Source of the DNA: a bacterium
GTDB lineage: Bacteria; Gemmatimonadota; Gemmatimonadetes; Gemmatimonadales; Gemmatimonadaceae
Direction of reading: 5' to 3'
Assembly (NCBI GenBank): GCA_027484025.1
Contig: JAIXTI010000121.1
Span: forward strand, 1-64,000
Length of the DNA: 64,000 nucleotides
Shown: positions 3,700 through 46,354 of the stretch, in pieces
Layout of the letters: each line of letters starts with the position of its first letter
Numbering within the stretch: the first letter of the stretch is position 1
Program-made: the position numbers and the translations under genes
Notes under the pieces: generated by a model
The model's input: only the letters and a program-made list of their open reading frames with translations
What the model was told of the DNA's origin: nothing
The model's database searches: none

Positions 3700-4062
3700 C
3701 TGCCGTCTGAGTAGCTGCCGTCTGAGTGGCTGCCGTCTGAGTGGCTGCCGTCTGCCACACTCGGCGCGATGCCGCGGATTCACGCCGAGACGGCGGACGG
3801 CAGGGACCCAGACCGCAGGCACGGGGGAACGGCGGGGCACCCCTGCGCCCCTGCCGTCTGTGTGGCTGCCGTCTGCAAGACTCGGCGCGATGCGGCGGAT
3901 TCACGCCGAGACGGCGGACGGCAGCAACGACAGACGGCAGGGGCGCAGGAACGGCGGATGCTTCTGCGTTCCTGCCTTCTGTGTTTGCTGCCGTCTGCCA
4001 CACTCGGCGCGATGCCGCGGATTCACGCCGAGACGGCGGACGGCAGGGACCCAGACCGCAGT
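3700..4062. repeat. 122-bp palindromic repeat array 2, between the two parS sites
   Basis: Begins with three 15-bp tandem copies plus a partial fourth (unit CTGCCGTCTGAGTGG, 3700-3755). Units of the array-1 family then start at about 3796, 3917 and 4039 (partial). The inner stem is shorter than in array 1 (CTCGGCG/CGCCGAG, 7 bp), because the flanking bases read GATTCA instead of GGATCG. The stretch 3407-4201 therefore has no gene: terminator, inverted repeat, parS, array, parS, parA leader. Confidence 0.85.
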
Positions 4063-6026: not shown

Positions 6027-7070
6027 ATGATCTCGACCACGTTCCGCGCGTTCACGCTTGCCGCCGTCGCTGCGATCGCCGTCGCCTGCGGCGGCAGCGG
6101 CGCCGACAAGGCTGTCGACAGCACCGGCGCCAAGAAAATGCGCGTCGCCCTGCTCACGCCGGGACCCGTCTCCGACAAATCGTGGAACGGCATCGCCTAC
6201 GAAGGGCTCCAGGCCATTCGCGATTCGCTGGGCGCCGAGATCTCGCATATCCAGACCAAGACCCCGGCGGAGTTCGAAGAGAACTTCCGGCAGTACGGCG
6301 TGCAGGGGTACGACCTCGTCATCGGCAACGGCTTCGAATATCAGGACGCCGCCGCGCGGGTCGCGCCGAGCCACCCCAAGACCAATTACGCCATTACCTC
6401 GGGACGGACCACCGGCCCCAATCTGGCCGGCTTCGCCTTCGCCTTCGAAGAAGCGTCGTATCAGGCCGGCATGATCGCCGGCGCCATGACCAAGAGCAAC
6501 AAGCTCGGACTCATCGCCGGGCAGGAGCTCCCGCCGGTCAAGGCCAGCTTCCTCGCGTTCGAGCGCGGCGCCAAGTCGGTGAACCCCGCGGTGCAGGTCA
6601 TCACGTCGTACATCGGCAACTGGGATGACGTGAGCGCCGGCCGCGAGCAGGCGCTCGCGCAGATCACGCAGGGCGTCGACATCATCTTCCAGAACGCCGA
6701 CGCGGCCGGCCTCGGCATCTTCCAGGCGGCCAAGGAAAAGAACGTCTACGCGTTCGGCACCAACGCCGACCAGAACGCGGTCGCGCCCGAGATCATTCTC
6801 GCCAGCGTCGTCATCGATCTGCCCAAGGCGTTCCTCATTGCCGCCCGCGAAGTGCAGGCCGGCACCTTCAAGGGTCGCGTCTACTACCTCGGTGTGAAGG
6901 ACGACGTGGTGCGCCTCGTCTACAATCCCGCGCTCGCCGCCAAAATTCCGGCCGCCGCCAAGGCCGCCTCGGACAGCGTGGGCACCCTGCTCCGTGCCGG
7001 AACGTTCGAGGGACTCAAGGATCTCACTGCGGCCGGCGACAGCGCGAAGCCCATCGCTCCCGCCAAGTAA
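6027..7070 (+). CDS. BMP-family (PnrA-like) substrate-binding lipoprotein
   Basis: 347 residues with a lipoprotein signal (lipobox AVA|C, Cys21) and a basic-membrane-protein/PnrA fold: the strand near VALLTPGPVSDKSWN, and the NGFEY segment near residue 100. In characterised family members this protein binds purine nucleosides and delivers them to an ABC permease. The downstream ATPase and two permeases match that system, so the likely role is nucleoside (or related) uptake at the outer face of the inner membrane. It lies 41 bp after parB. The exact ligand cannot be read from the sequence. Confidence 0.88.
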   Translation: MISTTFRAFTLAAVAAIAVACGGSGADKAVDSTGAKKMRVALLTPGPVSDKSWNGIAYEGLQAIRDSLGAEISHIQTKTPAEFEENFRQYGVQGYDLVIGNGFEYQDAAARVAPSHPKTNYAITSGRTTGPNLAGFAFAFEEASYQAGMIAGAMTKSNKLGLIAGQELPPVKASFLAFERGAKSVNPAVQVITSYIGNWDDVSAGREQALAQITQGVDIIFQNADAAGLGIFQAAKEKNVYAFGTNADQNAVAPEIILASVVIDLPKAFLIAAREVQAGTFKGRVYYLGVKDDVVRLVYNPALAAKIPAAAKAASDSVGTLLRAGTFEGLKDLTAAGDSAKPIAPAK

Positions 7071-9432: not shown

Positions 9433-10478
9433 ATACGCGCGCGTGGCTGCGTGGCGCCGGTCAACTGGCGGCCGTGTTGGGCGCAGCGTTCGTCATGTTG
9501 TCGTTGCTCCTGATCGCCACCGGACACGACGTCGCGACGGCGTTGCAGGCCATGGTGCGTGGCGCCTTCGGGTCGTACTACGCGATTACGTCGGCCACGA
9601 TGGTGCGGATGGTGCCGCTAGGCTTTGCCGGGCTCGCGGTGTCGATCGCGTTCCGCGCCGGCATTCTCAACGTGGGCGCCGAAGGCCAGTTGCTGGTTGG
9701 CGCGGCTGCGGCAACGGCACTCGCGGTGCCGCTGGCGGGGGTGCCGCCGCTGATCGCCATTCCGCTCATGGTGGCGGGTGGTGGCATTGCCGGTGCACTC
9801 TGGGCCGGTGTGGCCGGGTTGCTGCGCCTGCGCTTCGGTGTGCTGGAAGTGATCAGTACCATCATGCTCAACTTCGTCGCGCTCTATCTCACCGGGTGGC
9901 TGGTGCGTGGCCCGTTGCAGGAGCCCACGCGCATCAATCCGCAATCGGTGTCGTTGCCCGATGCACTGCATTTGCCGGTACTGCTCGAGGGCACGCGCTT
10001 GCATGCTGGCGTGCCGTTGGTGGTGGTGGTGGCCGTTGGCGCCTGGTGGTGGCTCTCGCAAACCGCCAGCGGGTTTCGTGTGCGGGCGGTAGGCGCCAAC
10101 GTGTTCGCCGCGCAATCGGCAGGCGGTATTGCCGTAGGACGTACGGTGTTCGGTGCGTTTCTCCTAAGCGGATTGCTGGCCGGCCTTGGCGGCGCCGTGG
10201 AGTACACCGGCATTACGTATGCGCTGTACGAAAACTTTTCGCCGGGCTACGGCTATACCGCCATTGCCGTGGCGCTGCTCGCGCGTCTGCATCCCATTGG
10301 TGTCTTGGGCACGGCGCTGCTCTTTGGCGCGCTCGAAGCGGGCGCCAACGCCATGCAGCGTGATGCGGGTGTGCCAAGTGTGGTGGTGAGTGTCGTCGAG
10401 GCGCTGCTCATTCTGCTCATCGTGGCCGCCGATCGCTGGTCGGAACGGGTGTCGGCGCGCGCGGAGATGGCCACATGA
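9429..10478 (+). CDS. nucleoside-type ABC transporter permease 1
   Basis: 349-residue polytopic membrane protein with a short basic N-terminus and about ten hydrophobic segments. The NVGAEGQLLVG motif near residue 77 is characteristic of the BPD_transp_2 permeases of the nucleoside/sugar class. It starts with GTG overlapping the ATPase stop by four bases and ends overlapping the next permease by four. It should pair with permease 2 to form the channel of the transporter fed by the BMP lipoprotein. Confidence 0.9.
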   Translation: MNTRAWLRGAGQLAAVLGAAFVMLSLLLIATGHDVATALQAMVRGAFGSYYAITSATMVRMVPLGFAGLAVSIAFRAGILNVGAEGQLLVGAAAATALAVPLAGVPPLIAIPLMVAGGGIAGALWAGVAGLLRLRFGVLEVISTIMLNFVALYLTGWLVRGPLQEPTRINPQSVSLPDALHLPVLLEGTRLHAGVPLVVVVAVGAWWWLSQTASGFRVRAVGANVFAAQSAGGIAVGRTVFGAFLLSGLLAGLGGAVEYTGITYALYENFSPGYGYTAIAVALLARLHPIGVLGTALLFGALEAGANAMQRDAGVPSVVVSVVEALLILLIVAADRWSERVSARAEMAT

Positions 10479-11395
10479 GCGCGCTCGATATCGGGACCGG
10501 CTTCGTCGAAGCCACGGTGCGTACCGCAACGCCGCTCGCACTGGCCGCGTTGGGCGAGTGCATCAGCGAACGTGCTGGCGTCATCAACATCGGCCTCGAG
10601 GGCTCCATCATTGCCGGCGCACTCGGTGCGACTGTCGCCGCAGGGGTGATTGGCGTGGGCGGCGGCTTCGTTGCCGGCGCCGCCGCCGGTATGGCCGTCG
10701 CGGCGATCTTTGCCTGCTTCACGGTCGGGTTCAAAGCGGACCAGATCATTACCGGCACCGCGATCACGATGTTCGCGCTCGGCCTCACGGGCACGTTGTA
10801 TCGCACGCTCTTCGGGACATCGGGGGTGGCGCTCAACACGCCCACGACGGGTGCGGTGGCGATTCCGGGGCTCTCGTCCATTCCGCTCATTGGCCCTGGC
10901 ATCTTTCACCAGCCCATCGTCACCTACGTCACGATGCTGCTCGCCCCGCTGCTCGCGTGGTGGCTGCAACGCACGCACCGCGGTCTCGCGCTGCGCGCGA
11001 TCGGAGAGTATCCCGATGCCGCCATTGCCGCGGGCGTTGCGCCGCGTCGCATTCAGGCGCTCGCGGTGCTCTTCGCCGGCGCCATGGCGGGACTCGCGGG
11101 CGCCACACTCGTGCTCGCGCAGGCTGGGACGTTCGTCGAGGGGATGTCGGCCGGCCGCGGCTTCATCGCGATCGCGATTGTCGTACTTGGCCGGTGGAAG
11201 CCACTTGGTGTTGCCGCCGCCGCGCTACTGTTCGGCGCGGCGAATTCGCTGCAGACACTCTTTCAGTCCATGGGCTGGACCGGCGTGCCGTATCAGCTGT
11301 TTCTCGCGCTGCCGTATGTGCTGACGCTGCTGGTGCTGGCTGGCGCGAGTGGACGAGCGGCAGCGCCGGCGGGGCTGGGGAAGCGCGTGGCGTAA
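10475..11395 (+). CDS. nucleoside-type ABC transporter permease 2
   Basis: 306-residue polytopic permease of the same class as its neighbour. It has the motif SERAGVINIGLEGSII near residue 29 and a run of Ala/Gly-rich membrane helices. It is the last gene of the overlapping set starting with the BMP lipoprotein. A 235-bp palindrome begins on the first base after its TAA stop. Confidence 0.9.
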   Translation: MSALDIGTGFVEATVRTATPLALAALGECISERAGVINIGLEGSIIAGALGATVAAGVIGVGGGFVAGAAAGMAVAAIFACFTVGFKADQIITGTAITMFALGLTGTLYRTLFGTSGVALNTPTTGAVAIPGLSSIPLIGPGIFHQPIVTYVTMLLAPLLAWWLQRTHRGLALRAIGEYPDAAIAAGVAPRRIQALAVLFAGAMAGLAGATLVLAQAGTFVEGMSAGRGFIAIAIVVLGRWKPLGVAAAALLFGAANSLQTLFQSMGWTGVPYQLFLALPYVLTLLVLAGASGRAAAPAGLGKRVA

Positions 11396-11630
11396 GGCGG
11401 TTGAACTACGGGTGACTGGTCCGTCGACTTACTCGCGACGGTACTAGCCCTCAGGGGGAAGAACGCAAGGGGAAAGGACGAAGCGCGGTTGTGTCTACCT
11501 AGACCGAGACTGCGGTTGGTTGCGGACGGCACCGCGCTTTCCCCTGTGCACTTGCGTTCTTCCCCCTGAGGGCTAGTGCCGTCGCCAGTAAATCACCGGA
11601 CCAAACGCCCGTAGTTCAACCCAAACCGCC
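11396..11630. repeat. long palindrome family P, copy A
   Basis: Nearly the whole gap between two convergent genes is one imperfect inverted repeat. Its core arms 11443-11469 and 11551-11577 are a perfect 27-bp match, and the outer arms also pair (a GGTTGAACTACGGG word at 11399-11412 and its complement near 11609-11622). Copies B (44881-45085) and C (46121-46354) share the core; a half copy lies at 12094-12168. It could serve as a bidirectional terminator here. Confidence 0.88.
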
Positions 11631-11633
11631 CCC

Positions 11634-11987
11634 TCACCGCGTGTTCCCAGAGCTGTCGAAGGGATTGTGTCTCACCGTCTCGCGCAGCTTGCTGAAGCGG
11701 CGTTCGAGCGTACGCACCAGCTTGTCGCGCGCGCCGTGGTACGCGGCCGCGAGCGTGGCACCGGTCGTCGTGACAGCCATCGGGTCGTAGCCACGGAGGC
11801 GCACTTCGAGCATGCACTGTTTGTCGTTGGCGCCTGCCTTGTCGGCGTTGGCGTCGTGAAAGTGGACCTCGATGCGCGTGATCTCGCTGGCGTAGCGTTT
11901 CAGCGCCTGCCCGAGATCGGCTTGGGCCTGTCGAACCACCGGATCGTTGGCATCGACATGGTTGTCGGTGTTGATGAGGACGAGCAT
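11634..11987 (-). CDS. HPF/RaiA-like ribosome-associated protein
   Basis: 117 residues, a single S30AE/HPF-like domain. It starts MLVLINTDNHVDAND and ends in a helix rich in basic residues (RDKLVRTLERRFSKLRETVR). Proteins of this family bind the 30S subunit and promote hibernation or protection in stasis; length fits a short HPF without the long C-terminal extension. ATG 11987 begins exactly at the domain. It sits alone between palindrome copy A, which ends three bases past its stop, and half copy D upstream of its start. Confidence 0.75.
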   Translation of the reverse strand: MLVLINTDNHVDANDPVVRQAQADLGQALKRYASEITRIEVHFHDANADKAGANDKQCMLEVRLRGYDPMAVTTTGATLAAAYHGARDKLVRTLERRFSKLRETVRHNPFDSSGNTR

Positions 11988-12093
11988 GGCACCTCGTGTG
12001 ACGGGGTCATATGCTGGTGCATAGGCGGTGCCACCGGCGCAAACGAGGCTCGACAACGCCTCGCCTCCACGGCGCGTTTTTCCTTGTAGACCG

Positions 12094-12168
12094 CACCGCG
12101 CTCCACCCTGTGCTCTTGCGATCTGTGCCCCGAGGGCTAGATCCGTGGGCAGTTGACCGCCGGACCCA
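12094..12168. repeat. palindrome family P, half copy D (right arm only)
   Basis: Resembles the right half of copy A from ACCGCGCT through the CGGACC end. The 26-bp core matches at about 21 positions. No matching left arm is seen, so it appears to be a decayed half. It lies between the HPF-like gene and the divergent dipeptidase gene. Confidence 0.6.
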
Positions 12169-12185
12169 CCGTTCTTCCCAAGCCC

Positions 12186-13472
12186 ATGCGCCCTCTCAGC
12201 TCCCTCGCTCTTCTCGCCCTCGCCGCCACGGCGGCACATGCGCAGTCCGGCCGCCCCGTCACCGACGAGGCCGCCGTGATGAGCACCGCGCGCGCCGTGC
12301 ACGGCAAGGTGTTGTCCATCGACACCCACGTGGACATCGCGCCCGCCAACTTCACCGCCACCGGCCCCAACTACACGCAGAAGCTGCCGCGCACGCAGGT
12401 CGACCTCGTCAAGATGGAAGAGGGCGGACTCGTGGGCGCGTTTCTCGTGGTATACGTGGGACAGGACACGGCGCTCAACGCCGCCGGCTTTGCGCGCGCC
12501 AACGCCCAGGCGCTCGAGAAGTTCGATGCCATTCACCGTCTCACGGAGCAGCTCGCTCCGGCGCGTGCCGAGATTGCGTACACGGCGGCCGACGCGCGTC
12601 GCATTCACAAGGCCAACAAGCGCGTCGTCTTCATCGGCGTGGAAAACGGCTTCCCCATTGGCAGTGATATCACCAACGTCGCGAAGTTCTTCGAGCGCGG
12701 CGGTCGCTACATGTCACTCGCACACAACGGCCACAGCCAGCTCTCCGACAGCAACACCGGCGAGCGCGACGGCGTGTGGTTGCACAACGGGCTCTCACCG
12801 TTGGGCAAGCAGGTCATCGCCGAGATGAACCGCTTGGGGATGATGATCGACGTGTCGCATCCGTCCAAGCAGTCGATGCTGCAGACGATTGCGTTGAGCA
12901 AGGCGCCCATCATCGCATCACACAGTGGCGCGCGCGCGCTGTGCAATCACAGCCGCAACATGGACGACGAGCAGCTCGACGCGCTCAAGAAGAACGGCGG
13001 CGTGATTCAGCTGGTGGCGTTCAACAGCTACGTGAAGTGCAATCCGGCGAAGGACGCGGAACGGACCGCGGCCATCGACGCCTTGCGCAAGGAGTACGGC
13101 ATCGCATCGGGTAGCCGCGCCCAGGTGCAGCAGGCGATCGAAGCGCTACCGAATGACAAGCGCAACGAGTATCTGGCCAAGCAGGAAGACATCACGGCGC
13201 GCCGCTATCCCAGCGATCCCGCCGCGACGGTCAAGGATTTCGCGAATCACATTGATTACGTGGTGAAGCGCATCGGCATCGACCACGTCGGCATCAGCAG
13301 CGACTTCGACGGCGGCGGCGGCGTGGACGGCTGGCGCAACGCCGGTGAGTCACTCAACGTCACCTCCGAACTCGTGCGGCGCGGCTATACCGCCGGCGAG
13401 ATCGAGAAGATCTGGGGCGGGAATTTGCTGCGGGTGATGGAGACGGTGGAGAAGGTGGCGAAGGGGCGGTGA
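12186..13472 (+). CDS. secreted membrane dipeptidase, peptidase family M19
   Basis: 428 residues with a signal peptide (cleavage after about AAHA, residue 18). Renal-dipeptidase-type zinc ligands are visible: DTHVD near the N-terminus, the bridging Glu in GVENG, His in DVSHPSKQ, His in IASHSGAR, and Asp in GISSDFDGGG. The family hydrolyses dipeptides, often with broad or D-residue tolerance, in the periplasm. ATG 12186 is selected because the signal peptide starts there. It is transcribed alone, with a palindromic terminator-like element 108 bp downstream. Confidence 0.92.
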   Translation: MRPLSSLALLALAATAAHAQSGRPVTDEAAVMSTARAVHGKVLSIDTHVDIAPANFTATGPNYTQKLPRTQVDLVKMEEGGLVGAFLVVYVGQDTALNAAGFARANAQALEKFDAIHRLTEQLAPARAEIAYTAADARRIHKANKRVVFIGVENGFPIGSDITNVAKFFERGGRYMSLAHNGHSQLSDSNTGERDGVWLHNGLSPLGKQVIAEMNRLGMMIDVSHPSKQSMLQTIALSKAPIIASHSGARALCNHSRNMDDEQLDALKKNGGVIQLVAFNSYVKCNPAKDAERTAAIDALRKEYGIASGSRAQVQQAIEALPNDKRNEYLAKQEDITARRYPSDPAATVKDFANHIDYVVKRIGIDHVGISSDFDGGGGVDGWRNAGESLNVTSELVRRGYTAGEIEKIWGGNLLRVMETVEKVAKGR

Positions 13473-24345: not shown

Positions 24346-24490
24346 GGAGGCCGTGGCGGTGCCAATTCGTGTCGCGAGAGAGCATCCACGCAAGTTAGCC
24401 AGCGTGACACCCATTCGCGTACAGGGGCCGACGGATATTTGTGCCAGGACCGCTCAATCCACCCAGATTCTGGCATTTCGGCAGAGTAGT

Positions 24491-24600
24491 GAACAGCTCT
24501 CACGGAAAAACGGAGGGACGGAGCCCTCGAAGAACAGCCTCCTCAGAGCTGTGCTGTTCTCCGTGACCTCCGTCCCTCCGTTTCTCTGTGAGAGCTGTTC
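24491..24600. repeat. CGGAG-rich inverted repeat (copy 2)
   Basis: Arms 24491-24537 and 24555-24600, beginning GAACAGCTCT and ending AGAGCTGTTC, pair over most of their length. Internal words such as ACGGAGGGACGGAG recur in related elements. It lies between the SNF2 start and the tex stop. Confidence 0.85.
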
Positions 24601-24627
24601 AAACCCAGCCAGCCGCCTAACCCACCC

Positions 24628-28797: not shown

Positions 28798-28819
28798 TCC
28801 GGCGAGGGGCTGAGACAAA

Positions 28820-28903
28820 CAACTGAACACGGATCAAACGGATGGAGCGGAGGAACGCGGATCAGATCCGTGTCCCTCCGCTCCATCCGTTCAATCCGTG
28901 TTG
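28820..28903. repeat. CGGAT/CGGAG-type inverted repeat between convergent genes
   Basis: Two arms of about 40 bp (left from 28820, right ending 28903), containing GATGGAGCGGAGG words and their complements, fill the gap between two convergent genes. Word composition loosely resembles 3491-3595 and 24491-24600. Confidence 0.8.
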
Positions 28904-28931
28904 CGCTGTGGGTCTGACCTGCCCGAACGAC

Positions 28932-44846: not shown

Positions 44847-44880
44847 GAGGGCTGAGGGGAACTGCAGTCGGGGGTTGGTT

Positions 44881-45085
44881 GGGCTCGGTTAACGGGCTAC
44901 GGATCTAGCCCTCAGGGGGAAGAACGCAAGGGCACAGGGGAAAGCGCGGTTGCGTCCACCGAGAACTGCAGTTGTGGTTCAAGTGGACTGAACCGCGCTT
45001 CTTCCTTTCTCCTTGCGTTCTTCCCCCTGAGGGCTAGTGCGGCGGCAGGTGGACGGCCGGACCAGACAACCGTTGTTCACCCGAA
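44881..45085. repeat. long palindrome family P, copy B
   Basis: Core arms 44905-44930 and 45012-45037 are a perfect 26-bp match to each other and to copy A. Outer arms pair weakly (left short, right up to about 45085). It lies between convergent genes and contains the last 16 or so codons and the stop of the AraC-type gene. Confidence 0.85.
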
Positions 45086-45960
45086 CCGCTTCTGCTGTTC
45101 CGCGCCACCAGCCACTGCGGCGGCGATGCAAACGGATCGAAGTTCTGCAACTGTGTGCGATACGGTGCAACGAGTCTGTCGCGTAACTCATTGAGCATCG
45201 CCTCGCCGGTAAATCGACGTCGGAATTCTGCGGCCCCGATGTTCAGCAGTCCGCTCACATGGCGCGAGAAGCTCTGCGGCGATGAGTACTCCAGCAGAAA
45301 CGACACCTGCGTCAGTGAGCACCCCGGGTTCTCGAGCAGATGGGCAGCGCGTACCAAGCGTGCCATAGCGAGATACTTCTTGGGCGCGGGGATGCCTTGT
45401 CGCGAGAAGCGGCTCATGAGTGTGGTGGGCATCACCCCGACGTAGCGTGAGAGCTGCTGCACCGTCGTCATCGATGGCGGGATGGTGAACAGCGTGTCGA
45501 AGAAACGCACACACGCGTCGCTCGCGCCCGTGAGGTCGGTGCGCAATGTCTGTATGGCCAGGTTGTCGATACTCACCTGGGCATTGGCGCTCACCAGCGT
45601 ACGCAGTTCACGCCACCCTCCGGGATCGCGCGCATCGACGAGTGTGCGCACGCCATGCTCTCCCAACGACAGCAAGGCCGACGACGATCGCGTTTCGTAG
45701 GCCGTGAGTAGCGCGACGGCCGGCACTCTCGGAAACTCGCGCACCATGCGCGCCACCGACGGGGCGAACTGCTGCTGATATCGGGAGACGCTGACGATGA
45801 CCGCCGAGACGGATTGCGAGCGCAGATCGGCCATGACCTGGTCGAGAGACTCGCGATGGACCGTGACGCACGCGGCGTTGGTCACGGCATCCACCCGTTG
45901 CCGCTCCGCCGGTGTGAGAAACGTGACGACCGCCCGGGTTGAACGACTGCTGGTAGCCAT
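45034..45960 (-). CDS. AraC-family regulator with receiver-like N-terminal domain
   Basis: 308 residues. The N-terminal half (about 1-125) has a CheY-like pattern (AVIVSVSRY, PAVALLTAYE, HGVRTLVDARD), but Ser replaces the phosphorylatable Asp and the acidic cluster is missing. The C-terminal half contains an AraC DNA-binding region (ARLVRAAHLLENPGCSLTQV, LEYSSPQSFSRHVSGLLNIG). ATG 45960 has GGAG seven bases upstream. The last residues up to the stop at 45034 come from palindrome copy B. Flanked upstream by palindrome copy C. Targets unknown. Confidence 0.8.
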   Translation of the reverse strand: MATSSRSTRAVVTFLTPAERQRVDAVTNAACVTVHRESLDQVMADLRSQSVSAVIVSVSRYQQQFAPSVARMVREFPRVPAVALLTAYETRSSSALLSLGEHGVRTLVDARDPGGWRELRTLVSANAQVSIDNLAIQTLRTDLTGASDACVRFFDTLFTIPPSMTTVQQLSRYVGVMPTTLMSRFSRQGIPAPKKYLAMARLVRAAHLLENPGCSLTQVSFLLEYSSPQSFSRHVSGLLNIGAAEFRRRFTGEAMLNELRDRLVAPYRTQLQNFDPFASPPQWLVARNSRSGSGEQRLSGPAVHLPPH

Positions 45961-46120: not shown

Positions 46121-46354
46121 GGGGTGAACGGCGGTCGGGGTCTTGTCCCGGCGACCAACTCACTGACGGCTCTAGCCCTCAGGGGAAAGAACGCAAGGCA
46201 AAAGGAGAAAGCACGGTTCGCTTGGCACGGAACAACGGGTCGGCATTTCGAGTGGATGGCACCGCGCTTTTTCCTTATTTCTTGCGTTCTTTCCCCTGAG
46301 GGCTAGAGCCGTCAGTCAGTAAGTCGCCGGGACAGACCCCAACCGCTGTTCCCC
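46121..46354. repeat. long palindrome family P, copy C
   Basis: Core arms 46172-46197 and 46281-46306 are a perfect 26-bp inverted match. Outer arms (GGGGTGAACGGCGG from 46121 and its complement ending 46354) also pair. Compared with A and B, the core has one G-to-A change mirrored by C-to-T in the other arm. It fills most of the 417 bp between the AraC-type start and rnpB, where no gene is seen. Confidence 0.88.

Follow-up and report, generated by a model that had tools for sequence, protein, structure and literature searches.

The stretch of DNA analysed here, referred to as the window (64,000 nucleotides from the genome of a member of the Gemmatimonadaceae), carries long palindromes of a single sequence family, which we call family P, on both sides of an HPF/RaiA-type gene, and it raises the question of whether such palindromes are the ends of an element that carries passenger genes or have a role at the gene ends where they lie. 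The preliminary description of the locus leaned towards a passenger-carrying element, in part because the same family flanks an AraC-type gene elsewhere in the window.

The palindromes around the HPF/RaiA-type gene are real. Copy A, a full palindrome (11399-11621; profile match 11404-11616), fills the gap between a permease subunit gene (10475-11395, + strand) and the HPF/RaiA-type gene (HPF; 11634-11987, - strand; Pfam Ribosomal_S30AE, PF02482). An inverted-repeat search resolved it into two arms of 91 nt each (11399-11489 and 11531-11621), 85% complementary and separated by a 41-nt tip, and folding it as single-stranded DNA gave z = -18 relative to dinucleotide shuffles. Its borders differ slightly from those proposed initially: the permease stop is 3 bases before the copy, such that arm pairing starts 4 bases after the stop and not on the first base, and at its other end about 12 bases still separate the copy from the HPF stop codon, which it had been said to pass by three bases. 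On the far side of HPF, half copy D (12076-12170) consists, as originally noted, of a right arm only, located about 90-100 bp and not 107 bp upstream of the HPF start; it is decayed and takes the same form in a sister species, G006 (profile model positions 108-202 in both genomes), so that HPF is bracketed by one full copy and one half copy. Both outer neighbours, the permease gene and the dipeptidase-like gene that is divergent from HPF (12153-13472, + strand), are conserved in relatives. The AraC-type gene (45034-45960, - strand) does lie between two full copies, one on its 3' side (44873-45077; 44875-45076 in a narrower delimitation) and one upstream (46137-46350; narrower, 46139-46346), the latter separated by about 35 bp from the RNase P RNA gene that follows it (RF00010, 46385-46814). 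Searching the palindromes against Rfam gave no match above the gathering score; the strongest of the sub-threshold matches were to models of microRNA precursors, a type that scores long hairpins. Long palindromes other than family P also occur in the window, including two copies of one unrelated to it at 1-201 and 3913-3999 (GACGGCAG...GCGCAGGAACGGCGGATGCTTCTGCGTTCCTGCC), and further ones of other sequence at 24490-24601 and 28813-28915, with a stop codon at a distance of 27 and 16 bp, respectively.

Comparison with relatives indicates that HPF is an ordinary resident of this locus, not a passenger: in G013, G004 and G001, none of which has family P, it is flanked by the same permease and dipeptidase genes, and the palindrome on its upstream side is the decayed one. 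The AraC-type gene is likewise resident in relatives without P (G005, G016 and G013). The sister species differ at the HPF locus in another gene. In G006 and G009, two other species of the genus Gemmatimonas that carry family P, the order is permease, a first P copy (P1), a gene for an OmpA-type lipoprotein (omp), a second P copy (P2) and HPF, whereas the window genome (G000) has copy A as its single P, and omp and one P are missing at that locus. Copy A resembles P2 over most of its length. Recombination between P1 and P2 would have removed omp together with one P, and the arrangement in the window, a single P without omp, is the one expected from such an event. Loss of omp in G000 is favoured because, of the two sister species, G009 is the one slightly closer to G000; a related omp gene is present beside the permease gene, without P, in G015. 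Separately, we observed that at locus L084 of G015 and L166 of G013 the omp and creatininase genes are in the opposite orientation relative to the P-bracketed versions in the species with P, hinting at inversion of the bracketed segment.

We collected family-P copies by searching the window's own genome and by applying an iterated profile to fetched loci, and obtained at least 48 copies in G000, at least 43 in G006 and at least 42 in G009. The unit is nearly self-complementary and about 213 bp long in nearly all copies (range 213-226 bp), and the copies are scattered across many contigs, occurring singly or as pairs with more than 600 bp between the members. Among 60 relatives, the family was detected in G006 and G009 only, with G018 adding a single match of 34 bases; no further carriers emerged from 298 genomes sampled across the phylum, the viral contigs searched contained no match, and our literature search found nothing on repeats of this kind in Gemmatimonas. 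Of the 48 sites in G000, 47 could be matched to a site in G006 or G009, showing that the copies are old. The preliminary description had proposed to look for empty sites in close relatives; the sole apparently empty site with good flanks, at contig C86 of G000, retains the outer arms and lacks the centre, and we therefore classify it as a decayed copy and reject it as a virgin site. Other half copies, such as G006:C12:38965, correspond to full copies elsewhere; family-P copies decay through loss of one arm or of the centre. The family would have spread to gene ends in a common ancestor of three close Gemmatimonas species and subsequently been inherited in place.

These data bear on the possibility that family P is an ordinary MITE family, that is, an inverted-repeat remnant moved by a transposase, with no role at gene ends and a position that reflects tolerance only. 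In form, the family is indeed MITE-like (non-coding, within the range of about 50-300 bp, with inverted repeats, multicopy and intergenic), its size, arms and copy number all fit, and YPAL and ERIC provide precedents (PMC2229807). However, we detected no direct-repeat signal of target-site duplication at P copies, which are old, and saw no autonomous partner in the loci examined, the sites are almost fixed between species, and, as described next, the copies strongly prefer the stop side of tandem gaps. We accordingly give this explanation a small, though not negligible, chance.

The position of the copies relative to genes is highly biased. With genes called by a simple hexamer script, single calls of which can be wrong, a stop codon was located 40 bp or less from an end in 110 of 129 full copies, compared to a start codon in 23 of 129. 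In tandem gaps, 59 of 69 copies lay nearer the stop of the preceding gene than the start of the following one (P = 1e-9), with median distances of 11 bp and 80 bp, respectively, and in convergent gaps, which are enriched for P copies relative to divergent gaps (P = 2e-4), both stops were about 10 bp from the copy. For some genes the reading frame terminates within an outer arm, as with the AraC-type gene, the called stop of which falls within the left copy. Thus, most P sites are single and lie directly behind the stop codons of ordinary genes. Judging from their placement, the copies are probably gene-end caps or terminators: as a candidate role, each would cap the gene or genes that stop at it, acting as a bidirectional terminator or as a 3' structure of the mRNA. 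A search for a T-tract terminator motif (a GC-rich hairpin followed by a T run) found none in or beside copy A (window positions 11200-12400), so that it is position that points to termination. Outgroup gene ends orthologous to P sites showed a weak excess of palindromes (5/50 vs 10/663), concentrated in three sites.

Singletons between convergent genes, with no excess of pairs, had been named in advance as the pattern that would speak against a passenger-carrying element. Genome-wide, most copies do lie singly, with convergent sites enriched over divergent ones, yet pairs around one or a few genes are in excess: G000 has 8 P pairs within 3.3 kb, against 1.55 expected under uniform placement (P = 2e-4), and G006 and G009 show a similar excess. 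Members of a pair are also more alike than random copies. The enclosed genes, the names of which were assigned by reading the sequences except where a Pfam test is given, include a creatininase family gene, arsR-arsM-arsC, DUF2283, an S9-type peptidase, a gene for an unknown secreted protein, a flavoprotein gene with an MFS transporter gene, the AraC-type gene and a four-helix-bundle gene (PF05635), but most of these contents are stable across the three P species.

Three of nine bracketed slots differ between sister species, namely the omp/HPF slot, a slot at contig C163 and a slot between lpdA and lipB. At C163, where genes were identified by reading the sequences, the two P copies of G000 have arsenic genes between them, whereas their orthologues in G006 flank a type I restriction-modification locus; the second P was not found in G009. 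The lpdA-lipB slot reads P-DUF2283-P in G000 and P-DUF2442-P-PemK/MazF module-P in G009, where a two-gene module of XRE type comes next; in G016, the MazF-type module seen in G009 lies between copies of a different palindrome, and G005 has other modules and other palindromes. More generally, the region preceding lipB (and following lpdA wherever the locus shows both genes) is a hot spot for modules of toxin-antitoxin type; these vary from species to species, and long palindromes separate most of them (loci L191/L170 in G016, L151 in G009, L043 in G000, L190/L169 in G005 and L128 in G006). The presence of the same mazEF-like module between host-specific palindromes in G009 and G016 shows that passenger and palindromes do not move together: which palindrome family is present depends on the host and not on the cassette.

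A passenger-carrying mobile element, in which P-gene-P moves as a unit and the palindromes are its ends, would account for the excess of pairs and the greater likeness within them, for the cargo swap at C163 and the arrays at lpdA-lipB, and for the PF05635 gene, which is located between two P copies where the same neighbours are only about 110 bp apart in G005 and G013 and about 200 bp apart in G016. It thus fits some of the slots. It does not fit HPF or the AraC-type gene, both resident in relatives without P, and it is further opposed by the prevalence of single copies at ordinary gene ends, by filled sites common to the sister species, by the change of flanking palindrome around the mazEF-like module and by the lack of a target-duplication signal. 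In an automatic control, single enclosed genes showed no excess loss or turnover (1/21 vs 15/454). We consider such an element improbable as the explanation of family P as a whole.

Given this negative control, exchange of cargo has been observed at three slots but is not established as a rule. Homologous recombination between neighbouring P copies would delete, and occasionally exchange, the genes between them. A more far-reaching version, in which species-specific gene-end palindromes are exchangeable slots, such that an enclosed gene excises with one palindrome and integrates at another copy by homology, would let toxin-antitoxin, restriction and arsenic genes circulate in an integron-like manner, with no need for a dedicated recombinase; we regard it as unlikely.

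Orthologous P copies are 83% identical, compared to 93% for their flanks. Across 6705 paired arm positions, 193 had changed on both sides, and 156 of these double changes restore a pair and are thus compensatory, against 16-32 in controls with slid partners. In addition, the central segment of about 64 bp can be inverted in place: among 96 orthologue comparisons, it was flipped in 22, in place in 50 and neither in 24, that is, inverted in 22 of the 72 resolvable cases. In the flipped cases, the gain from inversion is confined to the centre, and the outer arms are unflipped. For example, the tip of the window copy at 46137-46350 has an identity of 0.59 to its G006 orthologue when compared in place and 0.95 when flipped. 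Arm homogenisation together with spacer inversion, both of which family P displays, is described in PMC8604942 as a signature of template switching between inverted repeats; switching of the replication template from one arm of a copy to the other would both match the arms and flip the centre. In 35 of the 96 comparisons, the orthologue was equalled or surpassed in closeness by a different copy of the partner genome; ectopic conversion, in which one copy is replaced by another, could therefore also be a source of paired arm changes, and such replacement may add to the turnover. In tandem copies, G-T and A-C mismatches on the transcribed strand are about equally frequent (317 and 295, respectively), which argues against RNA folding as the cause of arm matching, and we rejected an RNA-level constraint acting through a G-U bias because there is no RNA-strand bias. 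Family P, then, evolves at the DNA level.

Evolution at the DNA level, along with the palindrome-separated toxin-antitoxin-type arrays at lpdA-lipB, would also be in keeping with an integron-like cassette system, in which the palindromes are attC-like sites for a structure-specific recombinase. The likeness to attC extends to palindromes lying between toxin-antitoxin-type cassettes. However, both attC end boxes (RYYYAAC...GTTRRRY) are present in only 2 of 126 copies, so the candidate assignment of family P as attC was rejected; the copies are scattered through the genome and do not form one array beside an integrase, and the palindrome family tracks the host and not the cassette. An integron-like system is therefore very improbable.

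Gene-end palindromes are not confined to the species with family P. G020 has its own palindrome family, separate from P, with about 35 sites (arm search) that also adjoin stop codons, and within one genus the same sort of gene-end position is thus occupied by unrelated palindrome families in different species. Among the loci examined, no P site coincided with a G020 palindrome site. Three G020 palindromes are split in mid-centre by IS3-type elements of two kinds (L300 5005-6419, L303 5372-6790 and L301 6266-7680), resembling IS1397, which inserts into REPs (PMC1525189). At locus L300, a PDDEXK_3 (GxxExxY-type) gene is located between two G020-family palindromes (6444-6872).

Taken together, we consider it probable that family P consists of lineage-specific long extragenic palindromes that are old colonists of gene ends, kept up by template switching, capping the ends of genes and recombining between copies. 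They provide a natural data set of long DNA palindromes that have persisted for long times in bacteria, with upkeep as expected of template switching, and connect such palindromes with sites where accessory genes, of the toxin-antitoxin, restriction and arsenic types, are exchanged among sister species.

Among known systems, family P is best read as a new family of the REP/ERIC/YPAL-like kind that also serves as homology for recombination. Like ERIC (IRU) and bacterial MITEs, which are non-autonomous palindromic intergenic repeats of 100-200 bp, it is palindromic and intergenic, but the TA ends and target duplications of ERIC-type elements (PMC2229807) were not seen for P in the alignment and the test applied. 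YPAL (RU-2) of Yersinia, about 168 bp long, is likewise a long palindromic intergenic repeat with tens of copies; its targets span or adjoin dyad symmetries, and its sequences are expressed together with upstream genes (PMC2229807). Going by its description, YPAL differs in that P is longer and almost all stem, with nearly fixed sites and tip inversion, and in that YPAL has variable duplications of 3-26 bp (PMC2229807), whereas none was detected for P. REPs and BIMEs share with P the character of extragenic palindromes near gene ends; REPs are 20-40 bp long and often form BIME clusters, whereas P copies measure about 215 bp (213-226 bp). Work cited in PMC1525189 has associated BIMEs with strain-specific segments of E. 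coli.
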